Source of the DNA: Candidatus Hermodarchaeota archaeon
GTDB lineage: Archaea; Asgardarchaeota; Hermodarchaeia; Hermodarchaeales; Hermodarchaeaceae
Assembly (NCBI GenBank): GCA_016840065.1
Contig: JAEOTB010000093.1
Coordinates: 1-34,036, forward strand
Reading direction: 5' to 3'
Length of the DNA stretch: 34,036 nucleotides
Each line of letters opens with the position of its first letter. The stretch's first letter is position 1. A program made the position numbers and the translations under genes. This document shows positions 3,608-6,016 of the stretch, piece by piece. Under the pieces are notes generated by a model. That model saw nothing but the letters and a program-made list of their open reading frames with translations. It had not been told where the DNA came from and ran no database searches.

Positions 3608-4870
3608 ATGCCACCGAGAGTGCCTAAACAAAGCGTCGTCAATATTGGTCTTGTTGGTCACGTCGACCATGGTAAGACGACCCTGGCGAAGGCGTTGTCG
3701 GGTGAGTGGACTGACAGACACTCACAGGAGATAGAACGGGGAATCTCAATAAAGTTAGGCTATGCTGATCTTATTTTCTACAAATGCCCAGCCTGTCCCC
3801 CACCAGAATGTTACACAATAGAACCCTCATGTCCTAAATGTGGTGGAGAAGCTGAGCTATTGCGACGGATATCGCTGGTAGATGCACCTGGGCACGAAGT
3901 GTTAATGGCTACTATGGTTTCAGGTACCGCTCTTATGGACGGTGCATTGCTTCTAGTAGCAGCTGATGAGAAATGCCCACAACCCCAGACTCGAGAACAC
4001 TTGGCAGCTCTGGAAATAACAGGTGTGGACAAAATCATAATAGTTCAAAACAAAGTTGAACTTGTATCCGAAAAGCAAGTGCTAAAGAATTATGAGGAGA
4101 TTCGGAAATTCGTCGCTGGAACTTTGGCAGAAAACGCTCCAATCATACCTATCTCGGCAATGTTTGGTACAAATCTAGATGTATTGATTCAAACAATTGA
4201 AGAGACAATTCCGACACCACAACGGGATTTAAAGAAGCCAGGTCTAATGTATATTGCACGTTCTTTTGACATAAACTATCCTGGTACCACACCTGAGAAA
4301 CTAAGAGGTGGGGTTGTTGGTGGGACCATTATTCAAGGAAAGTTGAAAGTGGGGGATGAGCTAGAACTCCGTCCTGGAATGCGGGTGAAGCAGGCTCGAA
4401 GTAAGCAACCGGTTTACAAACCTTTGCTCACAAAGGTAATGAGTATCCAATCAGGAACAGGGGCGAAATTAAACACTGCAAGTCCTGGTGGACTAATCGG
4501 CATAGGAACAACATTAGATTCTGCATTTACTCGGGCTGATTCGTTAATTGGAAACATTGCGGGAATCTCTGGAGAACTACCATCTTTAGTCGATAGCATC
4601 ACGTTGAAACCCTTCCTGTTGAAGCAAGTAGTTGGACTCGAAAAACAAATCGCTGTCATACGAATCAAACCCAAGGAGGAACTGATGTTAGTTATGGGGA
4701 CATCAGTTACAGTGGGTATTGTTCAGAAAGTGATGAAGAAGAGCAAGTTAGTTACTTTCAAATTGCAGAAGCCAGTCTGTGTTCTACCAGGTCAAAGAGT
4801 AGCGATTAGTCGGTTAGTTGAGAAGAGGTGGCGACTTATTGGCTGGGGAGCCATCACTGAAGAGGAATGA
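3608..4870 (+). CDS. eif2g: Translation initiation factor 2 gamma subunit (aIF2-gamma)
   Basis: This is the GTPase subunit of aIF2 that carries Met-tRNAi to the small subunit. It has 420 aa, full length. G1 is GHVDHGKT at residues 17-24, followed by the family-specific zinc knuckle (Cys60/Cys63 with Cys75/Cys78), G3 DAPGHE and G4 NKVE. Barrel domains II and III fill the C-terminus. GAGGT lies 7 nt before the ATG. The 3' end overlaps the next gene if that gene starts at its ATG. The alpha and beta subunits are not in the window. Confidence 0.97.
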   Translation: MPPRVPKQSVVNIGLVGHVDHGKTTLAKALSGEWTDRHSQEIERGISIKLGYADLIFYKCPACPPPECYTIEPSCPKCGGEAELLRRISLVDAPGHEVLMATMVSGTALMDGALLLVAADEKCPQPQTREHLAALEITGVDKIIIVQNKVELVSEKQVLKNYEEIRKFVAGTLAENAPIIPISAMFGTNLDVLIQTIEETIPTPQRDLKKPGLMYIARSFDINYPGTTPEKLRGGVVGGTIIQGKLKVGDELELRPGMRVKQARSKQPVYKPLLTKVMSIQSGTGAKLNTASPGGLIGIGTTLDSAFTRADSLIGNIAGISGELPSLVDSITLKPFLLKQVVGLEKQIAVIRIKPKEELMLVMGTSVTVGIVQKVMKKSKLVTFKLQKPVCVLPGQRVAISRLVEKRWRLIGWGAITEEE

Positions 4871-5285
4871 TGTTTCAGCTCGTCGCCCTGTTGTGGTGCT
4901 GCTTGATACGAACTTCTTGTTGTTGCCCTTTCAGCGGCGAATCGATATTTTTGAGGAAATCAAGCGTCTGTTGATTAGTCATGTCGAGTTTGTGGTGCTT
5001 CCACAAATCCTGAGCGAGTTACAAAGGCTAGTAGCGCACGGATCCAGTAAGGAAAGTCGTGCTGCTCGAAGTGCATTGCAGCTCGTGCAGCATTACTGCA
5101 CATCTAGAAGTCAACCAGGTAATATTAAGGTCAAGCTCGACGCTGACACAGCATTACTACACTACGCGCTGGCGACAAGGGCTATTGTTGCAACGAATGA
5201 CCGCGCCTTACGTCGTAGTCTAGTTAAAAGTGGATGCCGCGTAATTTTCTTAAGAAAATTAGCGATTCTTGCGCTTGATGAATGA
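4818..5285 (+). CDS. PIN-domain nuclease, Fcf1/Utp24-like
   Basis: This is a probable metal-dependent ribonuclease. Counting from the ATG at 4818, the acidic PIN residues are Asp30 (LLDTNFLLLP), Glu67 (LSELQRL), Asp110 (DADTALLHYA) and Asp128 (VATNDRALR). A PIN protein directly after aIF2-gamma is a conserved archaeal arrangement, and its relatives act in rRNA processing (family knowledge; role here inferred). The start is uncertain. The ATG gives a 53-bp overlap with aIF2-gamma. A CTG at 4857 has GGGGAG 6 nt upstream, and GTG codons lie at 4893 and 4896 just before LLDTNF. Confidence 0.85.
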   Translation: MRRGGDLLAGEPSLKRNDVSARRPVVVLLDTNFLLLPFQRRIDIFEEIKRLLISHVEFVVLPQILSELQRLVAHGSSKESRAARSALQLVQHYCTSRSQPGNIKVKLDADTALLHYALATRAIVATNDRALRRSLVKSGCRVIFLRKLAILALDE

Positions 5286-5357
5286 CTACTCGTTCAAAAC
5301 TCAATTTAATAGAAAAGCTTATCAGCAAATCAGGCTTCCAGAAATCGACGCTTGACT

Positions 5358-5377
5358 AAGGAGGCATAGCAAACCTG
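5358..5377 (+). promoter_or_regulatory. Shine-Dalgarno AAGGAGG and CTG start codon of Rpo7
   Basis: AAGGAGG at 5358-5364 is followed after 10 nt by CTG at 5375-5377. The frame is bounded upstream by a TAA at 5357-5359, and no ATG, GTG or TTG occurs in frame until a GTG at 5492. The family's conserved N-terminus (MYxxxT...VxIPPxxF) is encoded from this CTG onward, so it decides the start. Confidence 0.75.
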
Positions 5378-6016
5378 TACCAAGCTGTAACCATTCAAAG
5401 CAATGTCAGTATCCCGCCGAAACGATTCAATGAAGACCTCTATGAGGTAGCGGAGGAACTTCTCCGCGCTGAGTACGAAGGCGTAATCGATGTGGATTTA
5501 GGCTTCATAATAGCGGTCGTAGAAATAATGGAGATCGGTATGGGTAGGCTGATTCCAGGTGAAGGTGCGACGTATCACGATGTTACAGTGAAAATTTTGA
5601 CATTCAAACCTGTGGTGAATGCACTTGCACTTGGTGAGGTAGTAGAGGTTGTAGATTTCGGTGCTTTTATCAGATTGGGTCCTCTTGATGGTCTATGTCA
5701 CGTAAGCCAAATCACAGACGACTTCTTCTCATATGATCCACGAAGAGCTGCCCTAGTTGGAAAGGAAACTGGTAGAGTAATTAGCGAGGGCGACCAAGTA
5801 CGAACTCGAATAGTTGCGGTTAGCATAGAAGGTGGTGCGCGTGGTGGAAAACTTGGACTTACCATGCGTCAACCCTATCTTGGAAAACTAGACTGGATTA
5901 AGGAAGAGATTGCAAAACTTCTGGAATCTAAACAAAAGGCAGAAGGAAAGGGTCCTGATTCAAAACCCGAAAAGGGTGCTTCACGTTCAGGTAAGGAGGA
6001 ACCTAAGGGGCCCTAA
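5375..6016 (+). CDS. rpoE: RNA polymerase subunit Rpo7 (RpoE', RPB7 homologue), CTG start
   Basis: This is the stalk subunit of archaeal RNA polymerase, pairing with Rpo4. From the CTG the protein is 213 aa. The N-terminal tip domain reads YQAVTIQSNVSIPPKRF, then EYEGVIDVDLGF and the GEGATYHDV block. An S1 domain follows (VVDFGAFIRLGPLDGLCHVSQITDD), then LTMRQPYLGKL. The last ~40 residues are a Lys/Glu/Gly-rich tail longer than usual. Starting at the first standard codon (GTG 5492) would delete about 39 conserved residues. Spt4 follows 62 bp downstream, the usual neighbour. Confidence 0.93.
   Translation: MYQAVTIQSNVSIPPKRFNEDLYEVAEELLRAEYEGVIDVDLGFIIAVVEIMEIGMGRLIPGEGATYHDVTVKILTFKPVVNALALGEVVEVVDFGAFIRLGPLDGLCHVSQITDDFFSYDPRRAALVGKETGRVISEGDQVRTRIVAVSIEGGARGGKLGLTMRQPYLGKLDWIKEEIAKLLESKQKAEGKGPDSKPEKGASRSGKEEPKGP

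Follow-up and report, generated by a model that had tools for sequence, protein, structure and literature searches.

A probable CTG start codon in rpo7 of a Hermodarchaeota archaeon, one of the recurrent near-cognate rpo7 starts of Asgard genomes

The infC gene starts with AUU in Escherichia coli and with ATC in Streptomyces (PMC5472188). Like the gene described here, rpo7 of a Hermodarchaeota archaeon, it is essential, serves information processing, and has a near-cognate start codon that is conserved (PMC5472188), but its product is itself the factor that selects against AUU, which makes infC autoregulatory, whereas Rpo7 is an RNA polymerase subunit. Archaea, in addition, use aIF1 and not the IF3 of bacterial infC control, and autoregulation of the infC type does not apply to rpo7, because the product of this gene is Rpo7 while aIF1 is encoded elsewhere in the genome (contig C10). 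The sigR gene of Streptomyces is held down by its GTC start, on which the fidelity factor IF3 has a repressing effect (PMC5472188). Like rpo7, sigR belongs to the transcription machinery and has a non-canonical start; unlike rpo7, it is bacterial, its GTC is conserved, and the effect was tested experimentally, while the rpo7 start is a predicted one and its codon varies (CTG, ATT, or ATC). In archaea, Ribo-seq of Methanosarcina mazei showed that about 5% of unannotated small open reading frames (ORFs) start at CTG (PMC11456600), the same codon as in our case, but in unannotated small ORFs rather than in a universal core gene. Our searches of an open-access library found no paper on near-cognate starts in Asgard archaea or in rpo7.

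The window, meaning the whole stretch of 34,036 nucleotides that was analysed, comes from a Hermodarchaeota (Asgard) MAG, hereafter G000. The rpo7 gene, its start region, and the upstream ORF and sequence block described below lie on its forward strand. The gene for the RNA polymerase stalk subunit Rpo7 (213 aa) occupies positions 5375–6016, and its frame is open from the TAA at 5357–5359 through 6016. As the original prediction stated, this frame has no ATG, GTG, or TTG between that TAA and the GTG at 5492–5494, which would be residue 40; both the sequence and its translation confirm this. The codons that follow the TAA are GGA GGC ATA GCA AAC CTG TAC CAA GCT, in which the CTG at 5375–5377 is the putative start codon. 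The Shine-Dalgarno (SD) sequence AAGGAGG was verified at 5358–5364, so that the spacer to CTG 5375 is 10 nt and the SD stands at a working distance. The sole other weak codon between the TAA and the CTG is ATA 5366, but it stands just 1 nt away from the SD and the Hermodarchaeota family does not conserve it.

Read from the CTG, the protein has the domain order of archaeal Rpo7 (RpoE1), an N-terminal SHS2/tip domain followed by S1: Pfam assigned SHS2_Rpb7-N (PF03876) to residues 10–64 with 52.9 bits and S1 (PF00575) to residues 82–147 with 43.4 bits. In phmmer comparisons with solved structures, residues 1–190 matched residues 1–186 of the archaeal Rpo7 chain 8cro_E, with residue 1 on residue 1, and residues 2–182 matched residues 2–183 of 1go3_E, which is a full-length and collinear Rpo7 match. 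The CTG thus falls at the initiator Met position of the family, as had been predicted. Between G000 and its sister genome G001, codons 2–39 of rpo7 differ by 11 synonymous and 3 non-synonymous codons, and the changes at the three codon positions number 4, 2, and 12 (12 of 18 at the third position). This coding-type pattern indicates that the stretch before GTG 5492 is under purifying selection at the protein level and, together with the Pfam domains and the match to residue 1, bears out the claim that the Rpo7 N-terminus is fully encoded. Translation from GTG 5492, the first canonical codon of the frame, would yield an Rpo7 that lacks the greater part of the tip domain. It would remove 39 residues of this domain, including those of codons 2–39, which are constrained and match Rpo7 to residue 1, while full-length Rpo7 in the solved structures begins at the CTG position; we give such a start practically no chance.

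The DNA-level alignment with the rpo7 genes of relatives, which the original prediction had called for, showed a near-cognate codon at the aligned position in all six Hermodarchaeota genomes: CTG in G000, ATT in its sister G001, and ATC in the other four (G003, G004, G005, and G006). GGAGG is kept in all six, with a spacer of 7 nt in each of the five relatives, and the start contexts of G000 and G001 differ by a 3-nt indel. Only G006 among the relatives has a nearby alternative in-frame start, an ATG two codons upstream of its ATC. The near-cognate state is kept across two genera while the identity of the codon changes, with no canonical codon available before GTG 5492 in G000 and the near-cognate codon at the Met position of the family. 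These data bear on the possibility that base 5375 is really A and that G000 has an ordinary ATG start, which had been put forward as the main alternative. CTG and ATG differ by a single base, and of 99 Asgard rpo7 genes only that of G000 has a CTG there, so a C-for-A consensus error is conceivable for this genome alone. Even then the absence of ATG, GTG, and TTG at this position throughout the family would remain, since all five relatives have ATT or ATC there, and the 3-nt indel near the CTG shows that the region has really diverged. We consider such an error very unlikely. Taken together, the lack of a canonical start, the state of the relatives, and the residue-1 match make initiation at CTG the best reading, as originally proposed, and we conclude that CTG 5375 is very probably the start codon of rpo7.

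A further possibility is that ribosomes translate rpo7 after reading through the stop of an upstream ORF of 25 codons (5282–5359) or after reinitiating there. This ORF lies in the rpo7 frame, with its ATG overlapping the stop of a PIN gene, and its TAA 5357 directly adjoins the SD. It is not conserved in the relatives, whereas the codon position and the SD are, and it overlaps a conserved promoter-like block. For want of conservation we rejected readthrough or coupling from it, whose chance we put at only slightly better than that of the GTG start, and the ORF is judged incidental. The block in question is the 19-nt sequence AATAGAAAAGCTTATCAGC at 5308–5326, identical upstream of rpo7 in the alignment of the six Hermodarchaeota genomes; its core AGAAAAGCTTATNA occurs once per genome in each of the six, always before rpo7. 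It is probably the rpo7 promoter (BRE/TATA region) or a regulatory site. If it is the promoter, the transcript would start close to the SD and the upstream ORF would lie outside the message. No stable RNA hairpin was predicted around the rpo7 start of G000 (z = 0.30), and Rfam gave no match near it. Upstream of rpo7 lie the PIN-domain gene (Pfam PIN_9), with a TTG start near 4839, and a gene at 3608–4870 which we take from its sequence to be aIF2-gamma. Downstream, Pfam identified Spt4 and, further on, Kae1, and the genes between them are presumably, by sequence and position, a DUF359-like gene, S24e, and S27ae.

Other families have upstream elements of their own. In the family-level group f3, the loci upstream of rpo7 (e.g., L079:306-362) have a TATA-like TTTTTAT, then a conserved inverted repeat, GCTGAGCCGTCGGGTTCAGACC...GGTCTGATTGTTCT, and then the SD. 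For this f3 leader RNAalifold found no common structure, pair counts were not above those of shuffles, and there was no Rfam match. In f2, rpo7 is preceded at a distance of some tens of nucleotides by a different conserved block, which is AT-rich and lies around CACAAACTATTAATTTT and TTCATT.

The original prediction missed that the CTG is one instance of a recurrent Asgard habit. Many Asgard rpo7 genes have a plain ATG, and across 99 genomes the position of the Rpo7 Met was occupied by ATG in 43, TTG in 22, ATT in 14, GTG in 10, ATC in 6, ATA in 3, and CTG in G000 only. Codons other than ATG, GTG, or TTG thus stood there in 24 genomes, five of which were called ambiguous because a canonical in-frame codon occurs within 12 codons upstream. 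The 19 unambiguous cases fall in four family-level groups, f1 (Hermodarchaeota), f2, f3, and f24, and the near-cognate and canonical states require at least nine changes on the Rpo7 tree (parsimony minimum). Because the genomes were picked by match score and family, 19/94 is a rate in this sample and not a census. Judging from these sequences, the near-cognate rpo7 start is real, persists throughout the family, and recurs within the phylum; most likely it has evolved repeatedly and does not stem from a sequencing slip.

Near-cognate rpo7 starts go with a longer SD than their canonical relatives have. In f3, an SD match of 7–8 nt was found in 5/5 near-cognate genes and 0/35 canonical ones (Fisher p = 1.5e-6, relatedness ignored), and in f2, GGTG was present in 8/8 and 2/17, respectively (Fisher p = 4e-5, relatedness ignored). 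On independent pairs the association had the right direction in about 4/6 and was never reversed, but was not significant. Such coupling is expected if the near-cognate codons really initiate translation.

Asgard archaea use near-cognate starts at low frequency, with an enrichment at rpo7 but with cases in other genes too. In a panel of 30 genomes deliberately enriched for near-cognate rpo7, none was seen in the decidable cases of two ribosomal-protein genes, L37e (0/26) and S28e (0/24), compared with 19/94 for rpo7. Rpo10 had near-cognate starts in 4–5 of 28, namely ATA in four f2 genomes and one ambiguous case, and Spt4 in 2/30, both ATA. A comparison of parts of G000 and G003 yielded 103 reciprocal best ORF pairs, antisense shadows among them. 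Genes that convincingly lack a canonical start were limited to rpo7, in both genomes, and Bud32, in G003, a rate of about 1–2 in 100 Hermodarchaeota gene pairs.

The individual loci are as follows. In the four f2 genomes (L231, L232, L234, and L235 of G141, G131, G017, and G143, respectively), the ATA of Rpo10 (RpoN) stands behind a GGAG-type SD, and none of them has a canonical codon at the Rpo10 Met position. Kae1 of G017 and G131 (L420 and L429) has no ATG, GTG, or TTG from the upstream stop to the conserved N-terminus, and its start is likely ATT or ATA with AGAGGT upstream. The apparent Spt4 start of G213 and G214 (L256 and L259) is ATA GCC/GCG AAA ATG, the alternative being the ATG three codons on. 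Bud32 of G003 (L418 / L134) has a near-cognate start behind GGGAGG, the sequence immediately after a TGA being ATC ATT TCA TCA AAA CTC ATC GCT. Two further observations are of another kind. Kae1 of G010 and G020, from different families (L440, L441, and L442), matched in two pieces split near residue 82–89, which may reflect a split gene, an intron, or a frameshift. In the f3 genomes G213, G218, and G032, two tandem matches to the Rpo5 C-terminal domain lie about 650 nt apart.

How would the CTG work? The rpo7 gene probably has a promoter of its own directly before it; in the resulting mRNA, AAGGAGG would base-pair with the 16S rRNA 3' end and so position the 30S subunit, and Met-tRNAi would then accept the near-cognate CTG 5375 and presumably insert Met. 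The protein is predicted to begin MYQAVTIQSN, with MYQAVTIQSNVSIPPK as its N-terminal peptide. No tRNA-Met was named among the 25 loci listed for G000 in a tRNA scan. A missing fidelity factor was considered as the cause and rejected, since aIF1 is encoded in G000 (contig C10), one of the 29/30 tested genomes in which it was found. In Sulfolobus, aIF1 is reported to discriminate against non-canonical starts (PMC6237735), so one would expect little Rpo7 to be made, in an amount that responds to how strictly start codons are selected.

The weak start probably limits Rpo7 output, and the weak codon may have been kept because this output stays low or depends on aIF1 stringency. That it serves such a regulatory purpose, being selected rather than tolerated, is a tentative reading that we hold to be less likely than not. 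Near-cognate starts may instead be merely tolerated in Asgard archaea with a strong SD, the CTG of rpo7 reflecting neutral drift with no regulatory meaning. This accepts the CTG as the start and competes with the regulatory part only, and we give it an even chance. Near-cognate starts also at Rpo10, Kae1, Spt4, and Bud32 (ATC or ATT in the last) mean that regulation specific to rpo7 is not required and that tolerance with drift also fits. What speaks against drift is the contrast between 0/50 in the two ribosomal-protein genes, or about 1–2 in 100 gene pairs, and 6/6 family members at rpo7, together with the persistence of the near-cognate state across two genera in which the codon itself changes. 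Extended to the phylum, selection would make these starts a translational throttle on subunits of RNA polymerase, above all on Rpo7 and in some archaea on Rpo10. The supply of stalk would then depend on aIF1 stringency, much as infC and sigR are controlled by IF3 in bacteria; in this broad form we hold the proposal to be somewhat more doubtful still.

Gene callers that allow only ATG, GTG, and TTG are expected to shorten Rpo7 by 10–39 residues or to place its start wrongly in these genomes; Rpo10, Kae1, and others may be misannotated likewise. With a recurring ATT, ATC, or CTG start in a universal core gene, Asgard archaea would join the few organisms known to conserve near-cognate starts, and Asgard rpo7 would be a natural test of start-codon strictness in the archaeal (eukaryote-like) initiation apparatus.
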